36,222 nucleotides of DNA, taken from positions 1 through 36,222 of the forward strand of contig JAJCZO010000110.1 of NCBI GenBank assembly GCA_029262355.1. Direction: 5' to 3'. Both the position numbers and the translations under genes were made by a program. A model generated the notes under the pieces. The model was not told the DNA's origin. It saw nothing but the letters and a program-made list of their open reading frames with translations, and did not search any database. Positions within the stretch are counted from its first letter, which is position 1. Each line of letters starts with the position of its first letter. The stretch is from Deltaproteobacteria bacterium. GTDB lineage: Bacteria; Desulfobacterota; Binatia; UBA12015. Positions 4,827 through 35,611 of this stretch are shown here, piece after piece.

Positions 4827-4922
4827 GCCGCTGCCTCCTTGTACGCGCTGTAGGTCCGGTTGACCTATCACCATCGTCGATGCGAGATCCACGAAGGCGC
4901 CACGCATCGTCCGGAGATCACT

Positions 4923-6698
4923 TTGCCAGAGCAACCAACCCTCGACCCCCGCAGGATGTTCAGCCGTGCTGAGACTCGGCGCGCTTGGGAGCGACAGAGA
5001 CGGGTCTGCAACCTGTGCGGGAGGGACATCCCCTTCGACCTGATGCACGGCGATCACATCCACCCGCATACGAAGGGCGGTCGCACGGCCCCGGACAACT
5101 GCCAGGCCTTGTGTGGCAGCTGCAATCTCCGCAAAGGCAGCCAGCCGCAAGAGGTCGCACGACAGCACTTTGACGTGGCCCAGCTCGGCCCTCGACGCGC
5201 CGGAGGTCTGCGGACGTGGCAAGAAGAAGCTCTCCAGGCTGTGATGCCGGCCATCCTCACGGAGCCGGTACTAGTCGAAGCATGTCCGGGCGCGGGAAAG
5301 ACCAGCTTCGGCCTCGAGATCGCGTACCGGCTCATTCGAGACGGAGAGATCTCTCGCGTGATCGTGATCGTACCATCGCTCGGAATCGCGGATGGCTGGC
5401 TTGCGGCATCATCATCCAAGGACGAGTACGCGCCAACGATACCGCTCCGAGGGCCGAGAGACTGGCGTCCGACCGAACCCATCGGAGATCGATGGGCCGG
5501 CGTCGTCACGACCTATCAGTCGCTGTTTTCGTCCACCGACATGTTCCTCGCCCACGCTAGCGACCCCGGGCACCGAACACTCTTGATATTCGATGAGGTT
5601 CACCACGCTGGCGTCGACAGCGGATGGGGCAAGACCGCACAGGAAGCCTTCGGCAGATATGCAACCAGTATCCTCTCTCTGACCGGGACCCCATTCCGAA
5701 CGGCCCGTGATCCCATCGTCTTCGTCCCGTCACAAGGAGGGTCGGCGACGCCTCAGTACAGCTACAGCTACGGTCGAGCGATCGAGGATGTGGCCTGTCG
5801 GCCGGTCCAATTCGTGCACGCACGCGGCGAAACGACCTTCCGAACCTCGGATGGTGAAATCCATCGAGTGTCGTTCGATGATCGGAACCTAACCACAAAG
5901 GGCGAACGCCTCAGGCTGCGTACAGCACTTGAGTACGTCACGACCGGCTCGATCGCGGACGCTATGCTGGAGGACGCCAATCGATACCTCATTGCGCTGC
6001 GTCGGTCGGGGGACGACGACGCGGGAGGGCTGGTGGTATGCGTCGACTGCGACCACGCCGACGAGGTGGCGGCGCACATGGGCGAGCACCTCCTGCCGGA
6101 GCGGCCCATCGTCGCCTGTTCGCGGCTGAACGATCCCGGTGATCCCAGCCCCGTCCACGCAATAGGACGCTTTCGCACGTCGAAGGCGCCATGGCTTGTC
6201 TCGGTGAACATGGTTTCGGAGGGAGTCGACATCAGGCGCTTACGGTGCGTCGTCTACCTGACCAACCGGCTCACCCTTCTCTCCTTTAGGCAGATCGTCG
6301 GCCGAGTAGTCCGATCAGACCCCGCCAATACCGACGACCATGGGCGGGTTTATGTCCCTGCCGACCCCACTCTCGTCGAGATGGCGAGAACAATCACCGA
6401 GGAAGTCGATCTTCTTCCACCACCGATGACGATCATTGTGGATCCCAAGCCTCGCAAGACCCGCGTCCACGACGACGGAAGACCCCATGGAGAGTTCGAG
6501 ACTCTGGACTCCCTCGGAAAGGAGGGCCACGCTTCCGACACCAGCGGGCGAACGGCCGACGCGCGCCTCGTCGAGGCAGCTCGCAGATACATCGAACGTC
6601 GAGGGCTATCCGACGCGACCGATCCTCACAGCCTGGCGCTCGCCGCAACCGAGAACCCAGAACTCCGTCGAGCCATCGAGAACGAGGATGACAGCTGA
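4923..6698 (+). CDS. HNH endonuclease-SF2 helicase fusion
   Basis: 591 residues from the TTG at 4923, which has GGAG six bases upstream; the frame is open back to a TTG at 4860. Residues about 29-73 are an HNH nuclease: CNLCG, DHIHPHTKGG, DNCQALCGSCN, RKG, with both CxxC zinc knuckles and the catalytic DH. From about 95 onward there is a full superfamily-2 helicase: Walker A CPGAGKT (about 121-127), motif Ia IVPSLGIADGW, motif II FDEVHHAG, motif III LTGTPFR, then C-terminal motifs V (SEGVDI) and VI (QIVGRVVRSDP). It should be an ATP-driven nucleic-acid translocase coupled to a nicking or cleaving domain, as in several phage-defence systems. Its stop overlaps the next gene by 11 bases, so the two are translationally coupled. 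Confidence 0.88.
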   Translation: MPEQPTLDPRRMFSRAETRRAWERQRRVCNLCGRDIPFDLMHGDHIHPHTKGGRTAPDNCQALCGSCNLRKGSQPQEVARQHFDVAQLGPRRAGGLRTWQEEALQAVMPAILTEPVLVEACPGAGKTSFGLEIAYRLIRDGEISRVIVIVPSLGIADGWLAASSSKDEYAPTIPLRGPRDWRPTEPIGDRWAGVVTTYQSLFSSTDMFLAHASDPGHRTLLIFDEVHHAGVDSGWGKTAQEAFGRYATSILSLTGTPFRTARDPIVFVPSQGGSATPQYSYSYGRAIEDVACRPVQFVHARGETTFRTSDGEIHRVSFDDRNLTTKGERLRLRTALEYVTTGSIADAMLEDANRYLIALRRSGDDDAGGLVVCVDCDHADEVAAHMGEHLLPERPIVACSRLNDPGDPSPVHAIGRFRTSKAPWLVSVNMVSEGVDIRRLRCVVYLTNRLTLLSFRQIVGRVVRSDPANTDDHGRVYVPADPTLVEMARTITEEVDLLPPPMTIIVDPKPRKTRVHDDGRPHGEFETLDSLGKEGHASDTSGRTADARLVEAARRYIERRGLSDATDPHSLALAATENPELRRAIENEDDS

Positions 6699-17076: not shown

Positions 17077-20000
17077 TCAAGCGAGGTTGTCCTCGGAACT
17101 CGAGGCCTCGAGTGCTTCGCGCGCCAGCTCGAGCATGCGCCGGGCCGCCTCAGCCGCTTCCCCGACGGGCTCGCCCCCAGCAACGACCTCCTCACACAGT
17201 CGGATGGCTTCAGTCTGCGACTCACCAGGCCTGTCACCCTGTCGCCCGCGCAGCATGAAGACCGCAGCCAACTGCATCTGGATGGTTGCCCACATGGAGG
17301 GGACACTTTCCCTTGTCCAGTGCTTCAAGCTCTCCTCTAGAGTCCGGATGGCCGACTCGATGTTGTCGCGAGTTGGGTCATAGCCCGCGAGGAAGTAGTG
17401 CGTCAGACTGATCCGCCGCTGACAATCGACCCAGCCCGGCACGTCGTGATCGCGGTCAATCTCCGCAATCACGTTGGAGAACATCTTCAGCGCAAGCTGC
17501 AATGCCTCCACCTTCCCGGTGGAGTAGCCGATCCCTTGGGCCGAGCGGCCCAGGTCGAAAGCCATCCCCCTTGCGACCCGCGGTTCGATTGGCCCGACCG
17601 GCCCGGGCAGCGGAGCGCTGAGCGTGCGGAACGCTTCCGCCCATAGCTCCCCCTTCAGCTCCTTCTCGCCCAGGTTGCAGAGGACGTGTGCCAGAAGAGA
17701 GCGAAGGTGCACGGTCCTGGTTGGGTTGCTGTCTCCTAAGACTTCAATAGCCGCGCGAAGAGCGGATGGCGCGCTCGGCGGATCTACTATCGCAAGAAGT
17801 CGCCCCAGCTCCGCTTGGGTCGACAGCCAATCGTCACGCGTTTCGTCCGGAGTGAGTACACGAAGCGCGTCGCGAAGCTCGCGGAGTCCCTCGTGGACGC
17901 CGCTAGGGTCCTTCCGTAGCGGCGCAGTGTCCGCTAGGGCAGATCCAAGGTTCCGCTTCGTCTGAGCCCATGAGAGCGGAGTACGGTCCTCGGCCCGCTC
18001 CTCTAGCGCGGACCGGAAATCCGCGATGGCCTGGATGGCTTCCTCGGGGGACTGCTCAGCGAGCGAGAGGTGCTTGCGCGCCAGACCGGAGATGTTCTTT
18101 GCAGACGCCCACAACTCTGGCCCTGCCTCTCGGCCGATGCGTTGTGACGCTCGATCGGCGGTTGCGATAGCCTGCCGCAGGAGCAGCTTCTCTTCCTCGG
18201 CCTCGGTCGGAGGAGCAGTCAGCTGGATGAGACAGGCGGCCAGAGTCGCTTCCGTAGCAGCAGCCTCAGACAGGAACCCGCTCGCAAGTCGTTGGCTCGC
18301 GGCTGACTCAAGCGCCGTCCGTGCGGCCTCGAGATCCGCTCGGCCGTCGGGGCGTCTCTTCGAGAGATTGACAAGTACGTGCCCCAGAGTGTCTTGGGTG
18401 AGGGCCCAGTCTAGCGGCACCTTCTCTCGAGACTGCTCTTGCAGCGCGAGGCGCAGAGTGTGCTCGGCTTCCTCGAGTTCTCGCCGATCGGGACTCCTCT
18501 CTCCAAGCGTGGCGAAGGTCGCGCCAAGATTCGTCATGGTACCTGCCCAATGCAGCGGGCTTCGTTCCCGCGAGAACACCGTGAGCGCCTTGCTGTAGTG
18601 CTCGACTGCCTCACGGAGCGATGCGCCGCTCGTCCGATAGGCCGACGTTAGCCGCAGTGCGTTCCCCAGCCCGTCGTGGGCAAGCGCCCACAAGAGCGGC
18701 GACTCGGAATGTGCTACATTGTCCAGGGCGACCCTTAGGACCGATACCGCCTCTTCGAGAAGCCGTTCGTCGCCGTCGCGCTCGCCGAGCAGCCGAAGCA
18801 CAACACCCATGTTGGTCAGGACCAGAGCTTGGCCGCCTCGATGTTCCCCGGTCTTGTAGTGCCTCAGGGCGGCGCGGTAGTCTTCCAGCCCAAGTCGCAG
18901 ATCGGCCGTTTGAGGCGTTCCCTGCCCCAACCGAACGAACATGTTGCCACGCAGGAGCAAGGCAAAGGCAGACCGCCCTCCTACCTGCCCAATACAGCCA
19001 ACCGCTTCCGTAAGCACCGAGATTCCCTCGGTGAAGCGGGCTCGGTCCCCAGTCTGTTCGCCCAGCACCTGCAGGGCACCACCAAGAAGCTCGAGAATCG
19101 TACTGCGTTGTCGTGCACTCCATCGCCCTGAGATTTCTTCCTGCGAGAGAATTGCGCGCACCTTCCTGGCGAAGGGCTCTAGGGACTCCACCAGGTAGTG
19201 GCCGAATCGTTCCTCGAAGCCCGCCGAGATCACGAGCACCAATAGCCGGAGCACATCGGCTAGGGCTCCGCCCAGTGATCTCGAGATGTCGAGTTCGTCG
19301 CGGGTGTAACGGTCCGTGGAGGCCGGCGTCACTAGCTCGTCCGACAGCGTCCAGCGAAGGCGCAGCAAGTCGCCAGTCAGGACCGTACCCCAGATCATGA
19401 CCGACGCGCCCATCTCCACGAGACAGCGTTGTGCGCGTTCGTGGGCGGCGCTGACCGCTTCTTGCGGCTTCGGGCCCCCGGTTTCAAGCACTACCTCGGG
19501 CGCGAGCACTTCGATTCCGGATAGTGGCTCGAGCGCGTCGATGATCAGCCTACGGTTCTGCCCAGAGGGGTCGTGCTCCAACGGCGCTACAGCAACCGCG
19601 AACCGCATACCCGCCGACCGAACCTTGGCAGGCGCAAGGGGCCGATTGTCCTCTCCACCATCAGAGCCGGGAGTCGGCGCGAGTGTCGGTGGCCGAACAG
19701 GCGGAGAGCCCAGGAGCCGGCGGACAAGCGAGTGGTACTCCGATGGAAGCCTGTAGTGCGTGTATGGCCTCAAGAACCTAGGGATCGACCCCTCTGGCTC
19801 CTCGCCTAGGAGGACTGGAATGAACACCGAGTTGCGACCTTGAGCGTCGTAGACGTGTTGAAGGGCGAGTAGTCCTTCAAAAGCTCCGCCGCGCCCTTTG
19901 CCCGGTGGTGCCTGCCCCTCATACCGTTGGCGCAAGACCCGCGAGCATACGACCAGTACTGCGTCGGCTCGGTCTACCTGTTCGAGCATCCATCTCGGCC

Positions 20001-20151
20001 AGCCTACAGACGGCGCTGGCTCGTACCGATCGATCCAGGCATCTACTCCGCCGGCCCTGAGGTCGTCCGCCAGGCCAAGTACCGCACCCCTGTGAGGCTC
20101 GGAGTCGTGGGTGTAGCTCAGAAAGACTCGCGGAGGAGAATGCCGCGTCAT
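17077..20151 (-). CDS. SEFIR-domain protein with a long TPR array
   Basis: 1024 residues from the ATG at 20151 (GAGG seven bases upstream). Residues about 7-150 are a SEFIR/TIR-like domain: PRVFLSYTHDSEPHR, GLADDLRAGGVDAWID, GWPRWMLEQVDRADAVLVVC, SRVLRQRYEG and the VFIPVLL strand. A strand-rich linker domain follows (about 185-330: FAVAVAPLEHDPSG, MGASVMIWGTV). From about 340 to the end there are repeated TPR-like helix pairs with the recurring signature ALTNLGxxLxxLGER (ALVLTNMGVVLRLLGERDGD, MTNLGATFATLGERSPD, TQDTLGHVLVNLSKRRPD, KRNLGSALADT). Bacterial SEFIR and TIR domains act as signalling or NAD-processing modules, often in antiviral immunity. Monocistronic. Confidence 0.85.
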   Translation of the reverse strand: MTRHSPPRVFLSYTHDSEPHRGAVLGLADDLRAGGVDAWIDRYEPAPSVGWPRWMLEQVDRADAVLVVCSRVLRQRYEGQAPPGKGRGGAFEGLLALQHVYDAQGRNSVFIPVLLGEEPEGSIPRFLRPYTHYRLPSEYHSLVRRLLGSPPVRPPTLAPTPGSDGGEDNRPLAPAKVRSAGMRFAVAVAPLEHDPSGQNRRLIIDALEPLSGIEVLAPEVVLETGGPKPQEAVSAAHERAQRCLVEMGASVMIWGTVLTGDLLRLRWTLSDELVTPASTDRYTRDELDISRSLGGALADVLRLLVLVISAGFEERFGHYLVESLEPFARKVRAILSQEEISGRWSARQRSTILELLGGALQVLGEQTGDRARFTEGISVLTEAVGCIGQVGGRSAFALLLRGNMFVRLGQGTPQTADLRLGLEDYRAALRHYKTGEHRGGQALVLTNMGVVLRLLGERDGDERLLEEAVSVLRVALDNVAHSESPLLWALAHDGLGNALRLTSAYRTSGASLREAVEHYSKALTVFSRERSPLHWAGTMTNLGATFATLGERSPDRRELEEAEHTLRLALQEQSREKVPLDWALTQDTLGHVLVNLSKRRPDGRADLEAARTALESAASQRLASGFLSEAAATEATLAACLIQLTAPPTEAEEEKLLLRQAIATADRASQRIGREAGPELWASAKNISGLARKHLSLAEQSPEEAIQAIADFRSALEERAEDRTPLSWAQTKRNLGSALADTAPLRKDPSGVHEGLRELRDALRVLTPDETRDDWLSTQAELGRLLAIVDPPSAPSALRAAIEVLGDSNPTRTVHLRSLLAHVLCNLGEKELKGELWAEAFRTLSAPLPGPVGPIEPRVARGMAFDLGRSAQGIGYSTGKVEALQLALKMFSNVIAEIDRDHDVPGWVDCQRRISLTHYFLAGYDPTRDNIESAIRTLEESLKHWTRESVPSMWATIQMQLAAVFMLRGRQGDRPGESQTEAIRLCEEVVAGGEPVGEAAEAARRMLELAREALEASSSEDNLA

Positions 20152-21214: not shown

Positions 21215-22036
21215 ATGAAGCAGCTCACTCGACATGACGTGCTTTCCCAGCAGATCTCTGAGCTTGAGGAGGCTTGCCCGCCGATCGAGGCCTTCGGCGT
21301 CGGAGGCTCCGACAGCGAGAATTCGCCTGGCGCGCTGTCGGATATCGATTTCTTCCTATTCCTTCCGACCGACCGGTTCCTCGACCTAGTAGCTACATTC
21401 CCTTGGGGGATCGGACACCCAGTGACACCCGTCGCGCGCGCTCCGTTGTCGTTCCTACCCGATTTCGGCTTCAAGTATGCCTTCGTCCTTCCAGCCGGGC
21501 TCACCGTCGAGTACTTCTTGAACTGCAGAGAGACGCTCTCGAAGCATCCAATGAGACTTCGTACGCGGGTCGTGCACGATACCACGGGCTACTATACCGA
21601 CTTCCTCGCTGGGCTGCCCGATTCGCAACAGCTCACTTCGGATGAACAGACGGCGCGCGCAGCCAACGAGTTCCTTCTCGAGTGTTTACTGGTTAGGAAG
21701 TTCGCGGCGCGCCGCCAGCCGCTACCGCTGATCTACCGCTTGGATCGCCTACGGCTCGTACTCCTAGGCCTAGAAGAGCTTTCGTCGAGCGGCTACTTCT
21801 CGCCACACGGCGCCGATCGGCGCGACGTCGGAATCGAGGAACGGTTGCTCCTCGATACCGTGCCGACCGCATCCGAGAGATCCATCTTGACGTGCTACCG
21901 AAAACTTCATGGCCTCTGCATTGAGCGGCTTGAGGCACTAAAGCCGAACAAGGCATTGACACCCGAGTTCTTCTTCCTGGCGAACCAAACCCTAGAGGAC
22001 GTAGTGGCGGTCTTCCGAGAAGAGACTAAAGCGTGA
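21215..22036 (+). CDS. Nucleotidyltransferase-fold protein (first gene of four-gene operon)
   Basis: 273 residues from the ATG at 21215, with GGAG nine bases upstream. Residues 30-45 (GGSDSENSPGALSDID) form the GS...DxD signature of the polymerase-beta nucleotidyltransferase superfamily (Asp43, Asp45). Glu99 in GLTVEYFL sits where the third carboxylate is expected. A helical C-terminal half (ANEFLLECLLVRKFAARR, DRLRLVLLGLEEL) resembles that of aminoglycoside/lincosamide-type adenylyltransferases. It should transfer an NMP to a small molecule or protein; the substrate is unknown. It overlaps the next gene by four bases and is probably the first step of a shared pathway or signalling module. 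Confidence 0.8.
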   Translation: MKQLTRHDVLSQQISELEEACPPIEAFGVGGSDSENSPGALSDIDFFLFLPTDRFLDLVATFPWGIGHPVTPVARAPLSFLPDFGFKYAFVLPAGLTVEYFLNCRETLSKHPMRLRTRVVHDTTGYYTDFLAGLPDSQQLTSDEQTARAANEFLLECLLVRKFAARRQPLPLIYRLDRLRLVLLGLEELSSSGYFSPHGADRRDVGIEERLLLDTVPTASERSILTCYRKLHGLCIERLEALKPNKALTPEFFFLANQTLEDVVAVFREETKA

Positions 22037-22626
22037 TCCTCATGTCCCTCTCCTCCGTCGTCGGGGACGACGTGTCTCATCGCTACCTTGATCGCGTGAC
22101 GCGCGCCGTGTGGCGAGGCTACGAACACTGCGCAATCACCGTGAAGGAAACACCTGTCGCCAACCTGTCTCCGGTCGCCCACTCCGTCGGTGCAAACCGG
22201 CTAGCGTTCGCAAGCACACTGCTCGACCGATTCCACGAAGCCCACCTCCAACCGTATGAGCCAGTGGTGCTGAGAGCCGGCGGGATCGTCAAGTTGGTGT
22301 GCCCCCCGCTGGTCGAAGCATCCAGGTCGGGTTCGTACATCATGGACGGTATGCACCGCGTGATGGCAGCCCGACAAAGCCAACTGGACACGATCACCGT
22401 CACGACTGCGTCCGCCGATGTGTTTCCCGCCCTACCAACCAAGCCGCCCCGGTGGAGCGCGGTAGAAGTCCGCACACGGCCACGACCTCTGAACGAGATC
22501 CTTCCGTCATACTGCGATCGCAATCTGCGACCAACAGCGGCATACTTCGCAAGTGCCGCCTTCGACTACGAGAGCTTGGAGGCCCTCGTCGCGGCGTGCG
22601 AGAGCGTTGCCGCACGGAAAGGCTGA
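22033..22626 (+). CDS. ParB/sulfiredoxin-like fold protein
   Basis: 197 residues from the GTG at 22033, overlapping the NTase stop by four bases (an ATG at 22042 is possible). Residues about 40-120 resemble a ParB/Srx domain: VANLSPVAHSVGANR, a strand region VVLRAGGIVKLVCPPL, and the hallmark YIMDGMHRVMAAR (residues 103-114), in which DGxHR usually binds or processes nucleotide. The family includes CTP-dependent ParB, ADP-dependent free-serine kinase and nucleases. The C-terminal part (EVRTRPRPLNEILPSY) is unassigned. In this operon a small-molecule or nucleotide-modifying role is more likely than chromosome partition, as there is no parA. Confidence 0.7.
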   Translation: MILMSLSSVVGDDVSHRYLDRVTRAVWRGYEHCAITVKETPVANLSPVAHSVGANRLAFASTLLDRFHEAHLQPYEPVVLRAGGIVKLVCPPLVEASRSGSYIMDGMHRVMAARQSQLDTITVTTASADVFPALPTKPPRWSAVEVRTRPRPLNEILPSYCDRNLRPTAAYFASAAFDYESLEALVAACESVAARKG

Positions 22627-22659
22627 TGTGGACCAAGGCAAACCGATGAGTGTGGGCGG

Positions 22660-23973
22660 ATGTATCTGATCCTCGAGAAAGCGAAGAAGCGCACGCGACT
22701 CGAACCGCCGCCCGCCCGCATGCGCGTGGTCGTAACCCTTGAGGTGGTGATCGAGGACCCCGGCGGAGCCAACCTACTGTTGAAATACGCCTATAGCCAA
22801 GGACCAAACTCAACTGGCTATTGGGCGCCGCCCTACGCTTGGGAGACCGTTGAGGGTGAGCCCTATTCTGCCGAGGAAGCCTTGCAGGTGTTCGACGAGA
22901 AAAGCATCGACACCGAGAAAATGGCAAAGGGCCTGGCTGACATGCTCGGGATCGCCAATGTCGGGATCAAGAGACTCGATGAATTCACAGAATTCAAGGC
23001 GTCAACCAGCCAGCCTGACATCCCGGTCTGCTACCGAATAGTGCGCTATGGCCTCCCGCGAGAGATAAGTGAGGAACACCTGCCGAACGTCTTGGATTCA
23101 GAGTGCCTTCGCGGTCATGTTTTTTTCCCGCTGGATGCCGCGACGCGTGCGAACTTCGGCAGAGGAGAGCCCATAGATGGCGATGGGGACGGGGCTTGGT
23201 GGTACCTGGGCAAACCGGTCGCGAGCAACGTCAAGTATGTCCTGGAGCAAGATGCGGCCGGCGTGGGAGAGGTCTGGACTAAGGCGCCACCAGAGCGATT
23301 CTCCGACGACTATAAGGGCGTTCTGGTGTGCGCCGACCTTGCCAACTTCGGAACCACGACGAGTCGCGTCGACGTAGACACACTTTCCACAGAAGGGAAG
23401 AAGGTTGCTACTGATTTTCGGCAGGGCATCGCTCACCTCTTCAACCAGTTCTTCGCAGAGCTTGGGACCCTCCAAGTCCATCTTGCAGGCGACGGGTTCA
23501 TTTGCGCGATTCCAACTCCCGATCATTCGTCCGCAGAGATCTCAGCCGTCATACGCCGGGTGCTTGAGCGCCACGAGCCGCTACGCATTGCGGTTGAGCG
23601 CGTCAACAAGTTCCTGAACGCCGACGACAAGCAGTTGGGTACCCGACTAGCCCTTCACTACGGTTCGTATAGTTACGGTCGAGTCGGAAGATCACGAGCG
23701 GCAACCCCCAGCTTCGACGGGGCTGCTGTGATCGAGGTCGCCCGCCTGGAGAGCAGCTTGGGCAAATATGTGAAACGAACCCAAGCTCAGGCGCCCGAGG
23801 AGCTGCGGCACTCCTTGATCTCTAGCCCGCAGTTAAGGAAGGCGGCAGGCCGCGATTATCAAGAAGCCGTGCTGCACTGCGGCGCCACCTCCTTGGGGAC
23901 GAAGCGCGTCGGGAGCAAGGAGTATAAGACCAGCGCGGCCCTATACAGCCTACCCGCGCCGCCACAGGCATGA
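22660..23973 (+). CDS. Divergent class III nucleotide cyclase-like protein
   Basis: 437 residues from the ATG at 22660. The first 215 residues form an unrecognised domain. Residues about 219-375 follow the class III adenylyl/guanylyl cyclase homology domain: VLVCADLANFG (Asp226, first metal ligand), LQVHLAGDGFICAIP (Asp278, second metal ligand), a GTRLALHYGSYSYGRVG strand pair, and FDGAAVIEVARLESS, in which Arg362 matches the transition-state Arg. The usual Lys before GD is His, the purine-selecting Asp is not evident, and the usual Asn of VNxAAR is Ile. A non-standard base specificity, as in Pycsar cUMP/cCMP cyclases, or a binding-only role are both possible. It is embedded between the ParB-like and cupin genes. 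Confidence 0.7.
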   Translation: MYLILEKAKKRTRLEPPPARMRVVVTLEVVIEDPGGANLLLKYAYSQGPNSTGYWAPPYAWETVEGEPYSAEEALQVFDEKSIDTEKMAKGLADMLGIANVGIKRLDEFTEFKASTSQPDIPVCYRIVRYGLPREISEEHLPNVLDSECLRGHVFFPLDAATRANFGRGEPIDGDGDGAWWYLGKPVASNVKYVLEQDAAGVGEVWTKAPPERFSDDYKGVLVCADLANFGTTTSRVDVDTLSTEGKKVATDFRQGIAHLFNQFFAELGTLQVHLAGDGFICAIPTPDHSSAEISAVIRRVLERHEPLRIAVERVNKFLNADDKQLGTRLALHYGSYSYGRVGRSRAATPSFDGAAVIEVARLESSLGKYVKRTQAQAPEELRHSLISSPQLRKAAGRDYQEAVLHCGATSLGTKRVGSKEYKTSAALYSLPAPPQA

Positions 23974-23976
23974 ACT

Positions 23977-24702
23977 GTGTCAGAACTCGCCAAACTCGAA
24001 GTAATCGGAGCACGGATCTGCGGAGAGCTTACATGCTCGACCACCACGCCCGAGAGCGTTGCACTTGTAGAGTGCTTGATCGTCGACCTGCTGCACGCGG
24101 TCTTGTCCAGCCGAGTGACACTCGAGGATCTCGCGAGTGAGTCTTATGCTCATCCGAACGGATTCACGAAGGTCCCCGTTTTCGAGCAGGGACTTGGTGA
24201 GAGGCTCGCGATCCACCTGTGGCACCCCTCGCGGGACCCGTCACTCCGAATCGCCTCCCAGGTCCACGACCATCGATGGTCATTCGTTTCTCAAGTGCTT
24301 CTGGGAGAACTAGTTCATGAGGAGTACGTCGAGAGCGACATCGGGGAGGACGTTGTCCTCTTTTCGTACCGCTCTCCACGCGGACGGGACGCCTTTTCGC
24401 TGACCGAACGTGGGGCAAGGAGGCTTGAGGCGGTCGCCGAAGCTCGCTTTTCACGTGGCAGTCGATACCGTCTTGAGCACGACATCTGCCACCGGGCGAC
24501 AGCGGTCGCGGGAAGCACCGCTAGTATCGTTCACCAGGCGCAACCGGCCAAGGAGAATTCCCTAGTATACCGCTCGCCAGCGAACCAACTGCCGTGCGGC
24601 CGTGTCCCACTCAAGCTCCGGTCTCCGCAGCAGCTGGAAGGCGACCTTCGCACGATCCTCGACGGGCTCGCCCCTCACTCAGGTGCCTCCCGACTCCCGT
24701 AG
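23977..24702 (+). CDS. Cupin-fold protein (last gene of four-gene operon)
   Basis: 241 residues from the GTG at 23977, three bases after the cyclase-like gene stop. A helical N-terminus (VALVECLIVDLLHAVLSS) precedes a cupin barrel: GFTKVPVFEQGLGERLAIHL, then QVHDHRWSFVSQVLLGEL, with the HxH metal motif, then RYRLEHDICHRATAV and ASIVHQAQPAKENSLVY carrying later His residues. The pattern recalls cysteine-dioxygenase-like or sugar-modifying cupins. Probably a metal-dependent oxygenase or isomerase, or a ligand sensor. It ends with a GC palindrome directly after the stop. Confidence 0.7.
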   Translation: MSELAKLEVIGARICGELTCSTTTPESVALVECLIVDLLHAVLSSRVTLEDLASESYAHPNGFTKVPVFEQGLGERLAIHLWHPSRDPSLRIASQVHDHRWSFVSQVLLGELVHEEYVESDIGEDVVLFSYRSPRGRDAFSLTERGARRLEAVAEARFSRGSRYRLEHDICHRATAVAGSTASIVHQAQPAKENSLVYRSPANQLPCGRVPLKLRSPQQLEGDLRTILDGLAPHSGASRLP

Positions 24703-24724: not shown

Positions 24725-24807
24725 CCCCGTCCTGTCCGAAAACTCGGCTCGCGTAGCTATGTCGAGCGATTGATGATGACGCTCCCCGTCCTGTCCGGAA
24801 ACTCGGC
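24725..24807. repeat. Two direct copies of a TGTCCGGAAACTC-type repeat
   Basis: 24725-24748 and 24784-24807 are 24-base near-identical copies (CCCCGTCCTGTCCG followed by AAACTCGGC) set 59 bases apart. The second, extended to 24829, matches most positions of 35414-35459. They look like ends of an IS family and are placed before a gene-less stretch. Confidence 0.55.
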
Positions 24808-25090: not shown

Positions 25091-25126
25091 CAGCCCGAGG
25101 TGTGGGTTCAAGTCCCACCTCCGGCA
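25091..25126 (+). other. 3' end of a tRNA gene (putative attachment-site scar)
   Basis: GTGGG-TTCAAGT-CCCAC (25102-25118) is a perfect T-arm with a canonical T-loop. It is followed by the acceptor strand CTCCGGC (25119-25125) and discriminator A. No matching 5' acceptor (GCCGGAG), D-arm or anticodon arm lies within 100 bases upstream, so the 5' half is absent. The acceptor sequence is typical of tRNA-Leu, but isotype cannot be fixed. Such 3' fragments mark the distal end of elements integrated by tyrosine recombinases into tRNA genes. Confidence 0.6.
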
Positions 25127-27318: not shown

Positions 27319-30300
27319 ATGGTATTCGCCGAGAAAGAGGGTCCGTCGCCTTCGTCGCAGCAGGCGCGCGCGGGGGGGCGCGGCCGGCCGCGTCTGGTGG
27401 GCCGGGGCGATCAGCTCGAACTTCTCGCGGCTGCGCTCGCCGACGCGCAGCAAGGGAAAGGCCGGGTCGTGTGTCTCGGCGGCGAACCGGGCATAGGCAA
27501 GACCCGGCTCGCCGAGGAGGTAGCGGGGATGGCCCGGTCGGCGGGACTCGGTGTCCACTATGCTTGGGGCTACGAGGGCGTTGGGTCACCGCCATTCTGG
27601 CTTTGGACGCAGCTCCTGCGAAGCATGGTGTCGGGGCGAGATCTGGACGGGGTGCGCGCTCAGCTCGTCGATCAGGGGGAGATCCTCCGAGCAGTCTTGC
27701 CGGAGCTCGGCGGCGCCGAGCAGGTCGTCGAGCCCTCGAGCCGTCCAGACATGCGGTTCCAGATGTTCGACGCCGTTGCCCAGTTCGTTCTCGGCGAAGC
27801 TCGGGCGAAAGGGCAGGTGGTCATCGTAGATGATGCTCACTGGGCGGATCCATCATCCCTTCGGATGTTGGAGTTCTTCGCGCGCGAGGTCCCTCGGGCG
27901 CCGCTTCTGCTGGTTGTCAACAGCCGAGATCCGGGTGCGGAAGGAAACGCCGCCTTGGCCGACGCGCTGGGCAGCCTCGCGCGGCACGACTGGGTGGAGC
28001 GGCTCGATCTTGGAGGGCTCGAAGCGCCAGACGTCGACGCGCTGATTCGCGATGTGAGTGCCGCTCCGTTGTCGGACAAGGTCGTTGACCTCGTCCAAGA
28101 GCGAGCGCAGGGGAACCCGTTCTTTGTGAAGGAGATGGTCCGGTTCTTCGGCGGAGCCCCACGCGGAACGCGCCTCTCGGAGGATCCTGCGGCTCCTTCG
28201 CTGCCGGACTCGATCCGGGGGCTCGTTGCGCGTCGTCTCGAGTCTCTGCCGGACGTGTGTCGCACGACTCTGCGAACATCGGCGCTAGTAGGGCAGGAGC
28301 CTGAGATTTCCGTGGTCGCTCGTGTGATGCAGCGAGCAGGGGAAGAACTGCTGTTCGAGTTGGAGTCCGCGGTGGATGCGCAGCTCGTTGCTGTTGGCAC
28401 GGACCGGACCCTTCGGTTTGCGCACCCCTTGATCCGTGATGTCCTCGTTCTCGAGTTGCCGCCGTCGGTACGATCGGAGCTTCACCTGCAGATCGGGCAG
28501 GTTCTCGAGGACTGCGCTCCGGACGCTTGGGCTTCGATCGCAACGCACTTCTCGAAGGCCTCGGGACCACAAGCGAGCCGAAAGGCGATCGAGTATGGCC
28601 GGCGCGCGGCGGCCGCGGCGATGGAGGGCTTTGCGTTCGAGGACGCCGTTCGCCTGTACGCCCAGACGCAACGTATCGTAGCGATCGGGGAGGCAGGCGA
28701 GGTCCCGCCCGAGTCTCGAGCCGAGCTGTTGCTCGAGAGCGCGGCTGCGCACTCCTCGGCGGGAGACATCGCGCTGGCTCGCGAAGACGCGGTCTCTGCC
28801 GCGGCGGCCGCGCGGCAGCTCGGGAACGCCGCGATGTTCGCGCGGGCGGCCTTGCAGTTCTCGATTGGCCAGCTCGTCGTGGGGACTCGAATCGCAGCCG
28901 TCTCGACATTGTTCGAGGAAGCGCTCGGTCTGCTCGAGCGGGACGATCCGCTTCGCGGTCGCGTCCTGGCCGAGCTGGCGAAATTCTCTCTCAATCCGCA
29001 AGATCGGCATCGCGCGGAGGCGCTAATCGAAGAGGCGCTCGCCGGAGCGCGGCGGCTCGATGACCCGGAGCTGCTCGTGTGGTGTTTGGCCGCACAGCTC
29101 TACGTACTTTGGGTGCCGGGGAAGGCGGACCAGCGGATCGAAACGGCCGATCAGATCATCGCGCGTGCTCCCTCGGGAGCACCGTCGGGCGCGGTCGGCT
29201 TCGCACGAAATGCACGCATTCTCTCGCTTCTCGAGAAGGGAGATCTCCACGGCTACTCCGCCGGCGTAGAGGACATGGCGCGGGTCGCAACGGAAGTGCG
29301 TGACGTCACGGCCATGCCATTCGTCCTTCGCTACCGCGCCACCCATGCGATGTTAGAAGGGCGGCTCGACGAAGCCGAGCAGCTCTGCCAAGAGGCGTTT
29401 TCACAGGCCTCGGAGCAAGGGCTTGGCGAAGTCGCCGGCATGAACATGGCGGTGCTTACCTTCACGCTTCGCCAACATCAGGGACGGTTGGCCGAGATCG
29501 AAGCGCTCTTCGCATCGATGGCGGCGGGAGCTCCGGGTTTCGTGGGATGGACGGCTGCGCTTTGCGTCCTGTACGTCGAGCTCGATCGTCGGGACGATGC
29601 CGCGCGAGTCTTCGAGGCGGCGAAGCGGGATGCGCCGAAGCTGGTGCTCGATCCGAACTGGCTCTCGAACATCACGTGCTTCGTCGAGGCCTGCGTGTAC
29701 CTCCAGGATCGGGAATGGGCACAGACATTCTATGATCTGCTCGCCCCGTACGCGCGCTGCTACGTCGTGGTGGGAAATGGGGATTCGGCGCTTGGATCCG
29801 TTTCGCGGAGCCTGGGCCAGCTCGCTTCTTCGTTGTCCCGATGGAAGGACGCAGAAGGGCACTACGAGGCCGCGATCGCAGAGGAGATGCGCCTGGGAGC
29901 GCGACCGAACTTGGCGATCGCGCAGCTCGCCTACGCCGGGATGCTGGCGGACCGCGGAGATGCCGGGGATTCCCAACGGGCTGCCGAAGTACTGGGCGAG
30001 GCCGAGCAGATCATGCGCGACATCGGCATGGCGCGTTCGCTCGAACGCGCGGAGCGCGTCCGAGGGCGGCTTGGAGCGGCTGGTCCAGCGGTCCGCTCGG
30101 AACCGGATAACCGTGCGAGTTCCGCGGGGGCAGCCACCGCCAACCGGCAAGGTGTGTTCGTCGACGAGGGAGACTACTGGACCGTCGGGATCGACGGCCA
30201 TCGCCATCGCCTCCGCGCCTCGAAGGGGCTTCAGCAGATCGCACGCCTCTTGAGCGATCCGCGCCGAGAGTTCCACGTGCTCGATCTGGCGGGCCAACTC

Positions 30301-30684
30301 GCAATGACGGAGATCTCGGACGTGGGTCAACAGCTCGACGGTCGCTCGTACGGTGAGTATACACGCCGGTTGGAAGACCTGCGTGACGGCATCGCGGAGG
30401 CAAGCGACAACAACGACCCGACGCGGGAGGCGGCGCTCCGGGAAGAGGCAGACTTCATCGCCCGGGAGATCGCCCGGAACGTGGGTATCGGGGGCCGAGC
30501 CCGGCGCACCGGAACCCCCGCGGAGCGGGCGCGGGTGAATGTGACCCGGACCATCGCCAAGACGATCTCCAGGATCGGGGAGCTGGAGCCTGCTCTGGCT
30601 CGGGTGCTCGAGCGCTCGGTCACGACGGGTACGTTCTGCGTTTACGAACCCGACCCCGATTCCCCCGTGCACTGGACCTTGTGA
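27319..30684 (+). CDS. Large AAA/TPR regulatory ATPase
   Basis: 1121 residues from the ATG at 27319. After a short leader, residues about 25-400 form a STAND/AAA-type ATPase: LVGRGDQLELLAAAL, Walker A GGEPGIGKTRL (about 54-64), Walker B VVIVDDAHWAD (about 166-176), and a helical region with QGNPFFVKEM. A long TPR-like alpha solenoid follows (about 400-930). The C-terminal 180 residues carry a domain common to giant bacterial ATPase regulators: GDYWTVGIDG, GLQQIARLLSDPRREFHVLDL, YTRRLEDLRDGIAEA, ERARVNVTRTI and GTFCVYEPDP. No HTH or kinase domain was seen, so it probably acts as a sensor or scaffold. It lies between the two genes sharing the 37-bp element. Confidence 0.88.
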   Translation: MVFAEKEGPSPSSQQARAGGRGRPRLVGRGDQLELLAAALADAQQGKGRVVCLGGEPGIGKTRLAEEVAGMARSAGLGVHYAWGYEGVGSPPFWLWTQLLRSMVSGRDLDGVRAQLVDQGEILRAVLPELGGAEQVVEPSSRPDMRFQMFDAVAQFVLGEARAKGQVVIVDDAHWADPSSLRMLEFFAREVPRAPLLLVVNSRDPGAEGNAALADALGSLARHDWVERLDLGGLEAPDVDALIRDVSAAPLSDKVVDLVQERAQGNPFFVKEMVRFFGGAPRGTRLSEDPAAPSLPDSIRGLVARRLESLPDVCRTTLRTSALVGQEPEISVVARVMQRAGEELLFELESAVDAQLVAVGTDRTLRFAHPLIRDVLVLELPPSVRSELHLQIGQVLEDCAPDAWASIATHFSKASGPQASRKAIEYGRRAAAAAMEGFAFEDAVRLYAQTQRIVAIGEAGEVPPESRAELLLESAAAHSSAGDIALAREDAVSAAAAARQLGNAAMFARAALQFSIGQLVVGTRIAAVSTLFEEALGLLERDDPLRGRVLAELAKFSLNPQDRHRAEALIEEALAGARRLDDPELLVWCLAAQLYVLWVPGKADQRIETADQIIARAPSGAPSGAVGFARNARILSLLEKGDLHGYSAGVEDMARVATEVRDVTAMPFVLRYRATHAMLEGRLDEAEQLCQEAFSQASEQGLGEVAGMNMAVLTFTLRQHQGRLAEIEALFASMAAGAPGFVGWTAALCVLYVELDRRDDAARVFEAAKRDAPKLVLDPNWLSNITCFVEACVYLQDREWAQTFYDLLAPYARCYVVVGNGDSALGSVSRSLGQLASSLSRWKDAEGHYEAAIAEEMRLGARPNLAIAQLAYAGMLADRGDAGDSQRAAEVLGEAEQIMRDIGMARSLERAERVRGRLGAAGPAVRSEPDNRASSAGAATANRQGVFVDEGDYWTVGIDGHRHRLRASKGLQQIARLLSDPRREFHVLDLAGQLAMTEISDVGQQLDGRSYGEYTRRLEDLRDGIAEASDNNDPTREAALREEADFIAREIARNVGIGGRARRTGTPAERARVNVTRTIAKTISRIGELEPALARVLERSVTTGTFCVYEPDPDSPVHWTL

Positions 30685-33586: not shown

Positions 33587-34612
33587 TCAGGCAGCGAGAC
33601 GTGAATATCTGTGATGCAATCCGCCGAGCACGGGGAGCGCGACTACATTCCCCATCTCTGGGGGCTCCACGGCGCGTGGCTCAGGGCAGTCGTCGTCGAG
33701 ACCTTGGTGGGTCCGAGCCTCGTGATAGTAGTCAACGTACTCGCGAAGAATGCGACGCAGGTGCTGCGCGCCGAGGACGATGACATGGTCGACGCATTCG
33801 CGACGGAGAGATTCGATGACGCGCTCGACGTACGGATTCTGCCAAGGCGACCAAACCGCGGTCACGACCTGCTCTATGCCCATCGAGTTCACGCGTCGCA
33901 CGAAGTCGGCGCCGTAGATGCTGTCGCGATCACGCAGCAGGTACCTGGGTGCCGTGTCGTAGGGAAATGCCTCGACGATCTGCTGTCCGGTCCAGCGAGC
34001 CGATGGCGACATCGTCACCTCGATGTGAACGATGCGGCGTCGATCATGAGCCAGAACGACCAACACGCAGAGCAGTTGGAACGTCACCGTCGGCACTACG
34101 AAGAAGTCGATGGCCACGATGTCGCTGGCGTGGTTCTTCAGGAATGTTCTCCAGTTTTGTGACGGCGGCTTCCTGGTCCTCGGTCGGTATTTCCGCACCG
34201 TCGACCGACTTGCATCGATGCCGAGCTTGGCGAGTTCCGCCTGGATGCGGGGGCTGCCCCACGTCGAGTTGTAACGCCACATCTGTCGGATCATGTTTCG
34301 GTGCTCGGGATCGAGCCTGGGGCGACCGCCTGCATTGCTGCTCTTCCACCTCCAGTACCCTCGGAATCCAGCTCGGTGCCAGGCGATAACGGTCGCGGGC
34401 TTCACGATGACCAGACTGCCCTTCCAGCCCGACCACAGTTGTCGCAGCGCCACCCAGACCGCGCGGCCCGCCCCGGTTAGTCGGGGCCGCCTTCCTTGGC
34501 GATGGGCCACCATCAGCTGATGGCGCAGAGCGACGTTCTCGAGGGTGAGATTCGCGCGGCTTCGCAACGCCGAGACGAGGCTCCGAACCAGAGCAGGCAG
34601 GACGTCGACCAT
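33587..34612 (-). CDS. Integrase-core (DDE) IS transposase, apparently intact
   Basis: 341 residues from the ATG at 34612. The N-terminal part (ALRSRANLTLENVALRHQLM, VAHRQGRRPRLTGAGRAVW) and a helix-turn-helix-like middle (MWRYNSTWGSPRIQAELAK) lead to the integrase core. The catalytic residues are Asp in VAIDFFVVP, Asp in YLLRDRDSIYG, and Glu in PYVERVIESLRREC. The C-terminal GGLHHRYSRLAA ending is the family norm. The frame is uninterrupted, so this copy may be active. Terminal inverted repeats were not identified with confidence on either side. It belongs to the same family as the fragments at 13541, 26197 and 35612. Confidence 0.9.
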   Translation of the reverse strand: MVDVLPALVRSLVSALRSRANLTLENVALRHQLMVAHRQGRRPRLTGAGRAVWVALRQLWSGWKGSLVIVKPATVIAWHRAGFRGYWRWKSSNAGGRPRLDPEHRNMIRQMWRYNSTWGSPRIQAELAKLGIDASRSTVRKYRPRTRKPPSQNWRTFLKNHASDIVAIDFFVVPTVTFQLLCVLVVLAHDRRRIVHIEVTMSPSARWTGQQIVEAFPYDTAPRYLLRDRDSIYGADFVRRVNSMGIEQVVTAVWSPWQNPYVERVIESLRRECVDHVIVLGAQHLRRILREYVDYYHEARTHQGLDDDCPEPRAVEPPEMGNVVALPVLGGLHHRYSRLAA

Positions 34613-35282: not shown

Positions 35283-35611
35283 CGCACTCGGCTTGAGCGG
35301 CTCGCAGGAAATGAAGGGCCACAGGAAGTGTCGTCGCGATCGAGTTTTCGGAAGCCACAGTTATTCGAAGAAGCGCCCGCCCTCGACATCTCGCACCGAC
35401 TAACCCTGGTGCCCCCCGTCCTGTCCGGAAACTCCGCCGGCGGCGTCATGCAGCCTCTCGATAGTAGTGGGCGCGGCGCGACCTACGCGTTCATCGAGAC
35501 GTCTCTTCGATTCTGATCAGACGCTCTCCCGGACCGTCCCGATGCCGGCCACCAGGCTTCTCACCTGCATCGAGCACGACCTGTGCGTTCTCAGAACCGT
35601 CCGCGATCCGA
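35283..35611. other. Gene-less region containing an IS end
   Basis: No supported gene. The repeat at 35414-35459 lies here and probably marks the left end of the element whose transposase starts beyond the window. Confidence 0.45.
35414..35459. repeat. TGTCCGGAAACTC-type IS end
   Basis: This matches 24784-24829 at most positions (CCCCGTCCTGTCCGGAAACTC then a gapless GCAGCCTCTC end). It lies about 150-195 bases past the stop of the partial transposase at 35612, the expected place for its left terminal repeat. Confidence 0.55.

Follow-up and report, generated by a model that had tools for sequence, protein, structure and literature searches.

What would a nucleotidyltransferase, a ParB/Srx-like protein, a divergent nucleotide cyclase and a cupin do together in one compact cluster of bacterial genes? 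The question is raised by a 36,222-nucleotide stretch of DNA (contig JAJCZO010000110.1 of assembly GCA_029262355.1; termed here the window), which comes from a deltaproteobacterium with a 7.77-Mb draft genome and which encodes four such proteins, A to D, between positions 21,215 and 24,702. An earlier examination of the letters alone (the sequence-only reading) had proposed two interpretations of these genes, namely a nucleotide-signal defence module and a pathway for making modified nucleotides. The analysis described here favours the former, to which the genomic context at three of six loci points, and retains the latter as its main rival: A-B-C-D is tentatively interpreted, with a probability of roughly 0.42, as a mobile nucleotide-signalling system, probably directed against phages, whose predicted cyclase, C, would form a cyclic mononucleotide from a nucleoside triphosphate (NTP). 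This reading is preferred because the module is conserved, rare and probably horizontally spread, because a cyclase homologue is central to it, because its enzymes are coupled, and because half of its loci have defence genes as neighbours.

The gene set and its recurrence

Gene A (21,215-22,036; 273 residues from an ATG at 21,215, within a reading frame listed as open already from 21,149) encodes a putative Pol-beta-type nucleotidyltransferase (NTase). Gene B (22,033-22,626; 197 residues, GTG start), which overlaps A by four bases, encodes a ParB/Srx-like protein; gene C (22,660-23,973; 437 residues) encodes a divergent homologue of class III nucleotide cyclases with an extra N-terminal domain; and gene D (23,977-24,702; 241 residues, GTG start) encodes a predicted three-histidine cupin resembling thiol dioxygenases. 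All four lie on the forward strand, at distances of -4 (A/B), +33 (B/C) and +3 (C/D) bases that, like the coordinates, agree with the sequence-only reading, and this spacing suggests a single transcription unit. Against Pfam and NCBIfam, no match of A, B, C or D is strong enough to pass a family's cut-off.

A first profile scan of genome contigs found no locus. A scan with a C profile, which covered contigs from the genomes of 84,980 species and in which 161 stretches matched a pattern, yielded three loci: in Actinomadura mexicana DSM 44485 (L006), A. syzygii GKU157 (L007) and Ornithinimicrobium sp. INDO-MA30-4 (L008). A fourth (L013) was found among 341 genomes of the family to which L006 belongs, which gave three matches, two of them already known, and a fifth (L015) among 396 genomes sampled from the actinobacterial phylum of L008, where the presence of the set is patchy (two matches, one being the known seed, L008). 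A Streptomyces-type profile of D had one match in 396 actinobacterial genomes, and this was the L015 locus. Within the window's own class a full-length C occurs in one of 148 genomes, and within a sample of its phylum in one of 395, both being the window genome itself. Partial matches in G031, G134 and G476 were rejected as copies of C; they span 102-109 of 453 positions and resemble other cyclases. No paper on this gene set appeared among the matches listed from the open-licence PMC literature.

The sequence-only reading had made its interpretation depend on the genes being found together elsewhere, and B, C and D are indeed adjacent in five other genomes, hence at all six loci with a full-length C (the window, L006, L007, L008, L013 and L015); a recognisable A accompanies them at five. 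Profiles of A, B and D, each built from the other loci only, were run against six whole genomes. In the window genome they retrieve window A at an E-value of 1.6e-11 (runner-up 0.14), window B at 4.0e-19 (runner-up 0.127) and window D at 5.2e-21 (nothing else at E 1); because the window genes thus rank first genome-wide, a chance neighbourhood of A, B and D with C is taken as excluded.

A fifth gene, E, lies directly upstream of C at five of the six loci, its copies being 40-81% identical to that of L006. The order is A-B-C-D in the window and A-B-E-C-D, on one strand, in L008; L015 is arranged like L008, except that an unassigned gene stands where A would be; and at L006, L007 and L013, the three Actinomadura-family loci, A-B is convergent with E-C-D. 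Every one of the five relatives has overlapping C and D genes. Wherever A is recognisable (five loci), it overlaps B or lies at most six bases from it, and the unassigned first gene of L015 overlaps B. Because of this layout across loci, the set, which comprises four or five genes over ~3.5-4.3 kb, is seen to consist of two modules, A-B and (E-)C-D. The sequence-only picture of A-B-C-D therefore stands for the window, but missed both E and the modular division. Pairwise identities of A to D covary (r 0.92-0.97 over 15 locus pairs, the unassigned L015 gene standing in for A; r for A without L015 is 0.97-0.99 over 10 pairs), a covariation to which the three closely related Actinomadura-family loci contribute most.

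The cyclase homologue

Among 5.8 billion proteins (7,996 candidates scored) C has seven relatives besides itself, at ~30% identity; the metagenomic relatives are P0002-P0008, of which P0008 is truncated and was excluded from later alignments. Residues ~212-432 (23,293-23,955) are predicted to adopt a class III cyclase fold. Within this domain the two metal-binding aspartates, Asp226 (23,335-23,337) and Asp278 of an AGDG motif (23,491-23,493), are kept in 12 of 12 sequences, and all 12 have an arginine at Arg362 (23,743-23,745). Arg362 and, four residues ahead of it, Ile358 of the window copy occupy what we take to be the transition-state arginine and asparagine sites of class III cyclases; likewise, a position held by histidine or glutamine across the 12 sequences presumably corresponds to the Lys/Glu base-pocket site of known purine cyclases. 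C thus differs from class III adenylate and guanylate cyclases (CyaB, CyaC, Cya2, Rv1900c) in having isoleucine, valine or threonine for the asparagine, in having histidine or glutamine at the Lys/Glu site, and in its conserved, family-specific N-terminal domain. Its best profile matches in the window are weak (PADLOC PycC at E 0.02, Pfam Guanylate_cyc at E 0.31); all 12 members fall below the Pfam cyclase cut-off, and no more than one of them matches even at E 1.

The N-terminal domain (residues 1-205; 22,660-23,274) has predicted strands and helices, is conserved in the family and is Nudix-like at most. By eye neither it nor E has a Nudix box, and Pfam gave no Nudix match in E or C of L006 and L008. 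In hhalign comparisons with 40 column shuffles each, 2 shuffles attained the score of the C N-terminus against Nudix proteins, none that of E against seven Nudix proteins, and 4 that of the C N-terminus against E, with probabilities below 2% in each case. (The references were taken from 15 Nudix proteins of the window genome, of which 8 without a regular box were dropped and 7 used.) The structural-match lists for C were filled by its cyclase domain and are uninformative on the N-terminal part.

The partner proteins

The active-site motif of A, GGS-x10-DID (residues 30-45; 21,302-21,349), was identified by alignment with homologues. Window A has no Pfam match at E 1; its L006 homologue exceeds the cut-off of NTP_transf_2 (PF01909; 22.1 bits versus 21), and that of L008 falls just below it (19.7 bits). 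HMMER aligns A weakly over the motif with HalB, its best PDB match (E 0.019) and presumably a Hailong protein, and with an aminoglycoside NTase (range of E 0.019-0.067). The L006 homologue and these alignments lead to the prediction that A is a Pol-beta NTase. PADLOC gave a sole match for L006 A, to PDC-S09 at E 0.016, and a search for relatives of window A among the 5.8 billion proteins returned only A itself. In B, the DGMHR motif occupies residues 105-109 (22,345-22,359), and DGxHR is present at all six loci. Profile matches to ParB/Srx families are weak (Pfam Parb-CE, 0.042; PHROG ParB, 0.011), and the sole PDB match at E 1, aligned over the DGxHR motif at E 0.73, is SbnI, a ParB/Srx-type O-phosphoserine synthase of siderophore synthesis.

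D is predicted to have a metal cupin fold with three metal-binding histidines. His97 and His99 of its HxH motif (HDH; 24,265-24,273) are invariant in two alignments (5/5 and 15/15, both counts excluding L007 D, which lacks this region), as is His172 (24,490-24,492; 6/6 with L007 included, and 15/15). In its predicted structure D resembles thiol dioxygenases, so that thiol oxidation is a putative activity, and, at lower Z, Pac13, a nucleoside dehydratase tied at this level with numerous other proteins. A PHROG 'cysteine dioxygenase' profile matches L006 D at E 1.3e-7, and the best PHROG match of window D is phrog_4784, a family of unknown function, at E 7.2e-7. Cysteine and mercaptosuccinate dioxygenases differ from D in several respects: D shares 13-15% identity with them, has N- and C-terminal helices, is encoded with a cyclase, and in nearly all members carries H-x-x-G-F and H-x-W ahead of HxH.

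The motifs of all four proteins (including Asp226 and Asp278 of C and HDH of D) are located where the sequence-only reading had placed them. It had also proposed checking the families by fold; for C and D, for which this was done, the predicted folds fit the families assigned. Most of its gene assignments hold up; that of A gains support from the L006 homologue, and that of B has the motif and weak matches in its favour.

Comparison with known systems

Like Pycsar, the set has two metal-binding aspartates in a class III cyclase domain, forms a short operon and in some cases stands beside defence genes. It differs in the extra N-terminal domain of C and in the site that precedes the first metal aspartate by two positions, which holds cysteine, alanine, valine or serine in all 12 C sequences and a bulky aromatic residue in solved PycC proteins: by the numbering in PMC11224242, F100 of EaPycC and F60 of AnPycC occupy this site, to which Y50 of BcPycC probably also corresponds. 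Nor were TIR, cyclic nucleotide-binding domain (cNBD) or transmembrane (TM) families found in window A, B and D (Pfam, PADLOC, NCBIfam), in A, B, D and E of L006 and L008 (Pfam), or in the A, B, D and E slots of L006 and L015 (PADLOC). The highest mean hydropathy over 19 residues in window A to D is 1.78, in a helix of D that contains E, D and H residues.

The PADLOC PycC profile matches 7 of 11 C proteins (all but the L013 copy were scanned), from 0.02 in the window to 2.5e-5 in L015, the best, with no match in C of L008, P0002, P0003 and P0006. These matches were rejected as evidence for Pycsar, since the profile does not discriminate: one ordinary GAF-cyclase used as a control (L005) scores 2.1e-20, far more strongly than the C proteins. 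(L005 was the one control; at the partial-match loci L003 and L004 no open reading frame suited the purpose.)

Like CBASS and Hailong, the set includes a protein with a Pol-beta NTase motif, A, whose weak best PDB alignment is to HalB. It differs from them in being centred on a cyclase, and no SMODS/CD-NTase profile match, Cap partner or HalA-like partner was found; in particular, A of the window, L006 and L008 has no Pfam SMODS match at E 1. Membership in Pycsar (no cNBD, TIR or TM effector, and no aromatic residue before the first metal aspartate) and in CBASS (no SMODS match in A) is thus rejected on the features tested, in support of the sequence-only statement that the set is not CBASS and lacks a Pycsar effector. 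Panoptes (OptS/OptE), as described in PMC12657218, is similarly a rare defence operon centred on a synthase.

Genomic surroundings

Flanking proteins (20 from the relatives and two from the window, hand-picked among the longer open reading frames) were scanned with PADLOC at 1e-8. At L015, four of six are defence proteins (part of BrxC; PglZ, 4e-213; BrxD, 2e-196; BrxHI, 4e-276), and 186 bases separate the end of D from that of the BrxHI gene. At L006, two of three, which flank the set from either side, are DrmMI/MmeI-type IIG enzymes (E 0). In the window, one of two is clear, a bSEFIR protein 1.1 kb from the set, and the other, a methyltransferase, is a generic match. Hence three of the six loci adjoin defence genes; this context is suggestive and is not a test of enrichment, because the flanks were hand-picked without a background rate. 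BREX, the type IIG enzymes and SEFIR were rejected as members of the system itself, because each occurs at one locus only.

Mobility of the set is hinted at by its patchy presence and by two further features. In L008, A lies in frame behind the N-terminus of an integrase, and third-position GC content is lower in those genes of the set that were listed (0.51-0.59 in L008, 0.51-0.55 in L015) than in the remaining listed open reading frames of these two loci; in L006 and the window it is not below that of the neighbours. A metH-like gene (named by eye) lies near the set both in L007 (2,676-6,275) and in L013 (12,572-16,183), which hints at a shared insertion place or at vertical descent.

Elsewhere in the window, the reverse-strand gene at 17,077-20,151 encodes a SEFIR/TIR-like, bSEFIR-like protein with weak TPR matches, and the SEFIR neighbour of the sequence-only reading is thereby confirmed (Pfam SEFIR, 1e-16; PADLOC bSEFIR, 6.6e-33). 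That reading had also placed the set in an 'IS-riddled' island, which seems too strong a term, one of 16 Pfam-scanned window proteins (a subset of the open reading frames) being transposase-like (rve_3; 33,587-34,612), and beside a tRNA scar: a T-arm and 3' acceptor half of a tRNA, possibly an integration scar, can be recognised by eye near 25,100-25,126, where ARAGORN finds no tRNA. Downstream of D, a 24-base direct repeat, CCCCGTCCTGTCCGRAAACTCGGC, occurs at 24,725-24,748, 24,784-24,807 and 35,414-35,437, one copy having a mismatch; such a three-copy repeat arose in none of 100 shuffles, the last two copies extend to 60 bases at 80% identity, and the repeats are perhaps scars of inserted elements. 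Further possible defence genes on the forward strand encode a 1,121-residue AAA_16 protein, labelled STAND-like (27,319-30,684), and a protein with HNH and ResIII helicase regions, possibly of restriction or defence (4,860-6,698).

Proposed mechanism and alternative explanations

The preferred reading can be put as a sequence of steps. C, with its predicted cyclase fold, both metal aspartates and catalytic-site arginine, would convert an NTP into a cyclic mononucleotide. Its N-terminal domain, together with E where present, may sense a trigger via a nucleotide-like ligand and switch the cyclase. A non-standard cyclic nucleotide is the suggested product, since C differs at two base-pocket positions from known purine cyclases and from solved Pycsar cyclases. 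The tightly coupled pairs C-D and A-B, which form two convergent units at the Actinomadura-family loci, could then divide the work: E-C-D would make the signal, which D perhaps oxidises or senses, and A-B would answer it, with the NTase as the harmful arm restrained by nucleotide-binding B. Signal, trigger and effector are thus inferred. That all these parts hold together, as a new form of bacterial immune signalling in which a cyclase equipped with Nudix-like sensors, both within it and in a partner protein, makes a non-standard cyclic nucleotide that a cupin modifies or reads and an NTase-ParB/Srx pair answers, is a doubtful proposition.

Several observations weigh against a signalling defence system. 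No obvious effector (TIR, nuclease or clear membrane part) was found among A to E, and the transition-state asparagine is absent from all 12 C sequences. E is missing from the window genome (the whole draft, 92.88% complete, was searched), and the first gene of L015, in which a GSGG...DVDL motif can be seen by eye, has no detectable homology to A either by a profile search or by direct hhalign profile comparison. The flanks of L008 (two generic matches in four), L007 (one generic helicase in four) and L013 (none in three) offer no comparable defence context. No relatives were found of C and E in phages, of C, D and E in viral contigs (by profiles), or of A, C, D, E and the DNA of the region in plasmids. 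In A. syzygii, D (10,362-10,934 of L007) has lost its cupin core, including HxH, in frame, through either decay or an assembly fault. Finally, relatives of D (L039, L040 and L041; E 5.5e-11 to 6.3e-9) occur away from the set in three Actinomadura-family genomes, flanked by genes for a membrane protein and for an inositol-monophosphatase-like protein (neighbours named by eye), and the latter neighbour would suit a metabolic role.

The last point bears on the main rival, that the set makes a modified nucleotide or nucleotide-linked metabolite, D oxidising, A adding a nucleotide, B phosphorylating or binding, and C cyclising or releasing. The resemblance of D to thiol dioxygenases and Pac13, of A to small-molecule NTases and of B to the siderophore enzyme SbnI all fit such a pathway, which is nevertheless unlikely, for the class III cyclases of known systems act in signalling, no conserved transporter, synthetase or methyltransferase was seen in the set, and the set is patchily distributed and touches defence genes at three of six loci.

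A second rival, less probable still, keeps C and denies it a signal: as a nucleotide-binding pseudo-cyclase it would control A or D on sensing an NTP or a cyclic nucleotide of foreign origin. Because all 12 sequences lack the asparagine on which class III cyclases usually depend, C may be weak or dead, and histidine or glutamine at the Lys/Glu site and the scores below the Pfam cut-off point the same way. Some cyclase variants without the asparagine are still active, however, and the metal aspartates and the arginine are invariant in 12 of 12 sequences at ~30% identity to window C, a conservation for which a pure sensor would have no clear need. Least probable is an addiction module resembling toxin-antitoxin systems (A the toxin, B the antitoxin) that travels with a separate cyclase-cupin pair, for although NTase toxins are known and A and B are closely packed and form a unit of their own at the Actinomadura-family loci, B, C and D stay together at all six loci despite their rearranged order, which argues for a joint function of the three.

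Conclusions

Nucleotide-signalling defences so far comprise Pycsar, CBASS, Thoeris, type III CRISPR and Panoptes. If the preferred reading is true, the set described here would add to them a system that is built around a cyclase of unread base specificity and includes an oxygenase-like partner, and because it is small and carried by named strains, it is directly testable. Even if its role should prove to be metabolic, a class III cyclase would there be put to unusual use.

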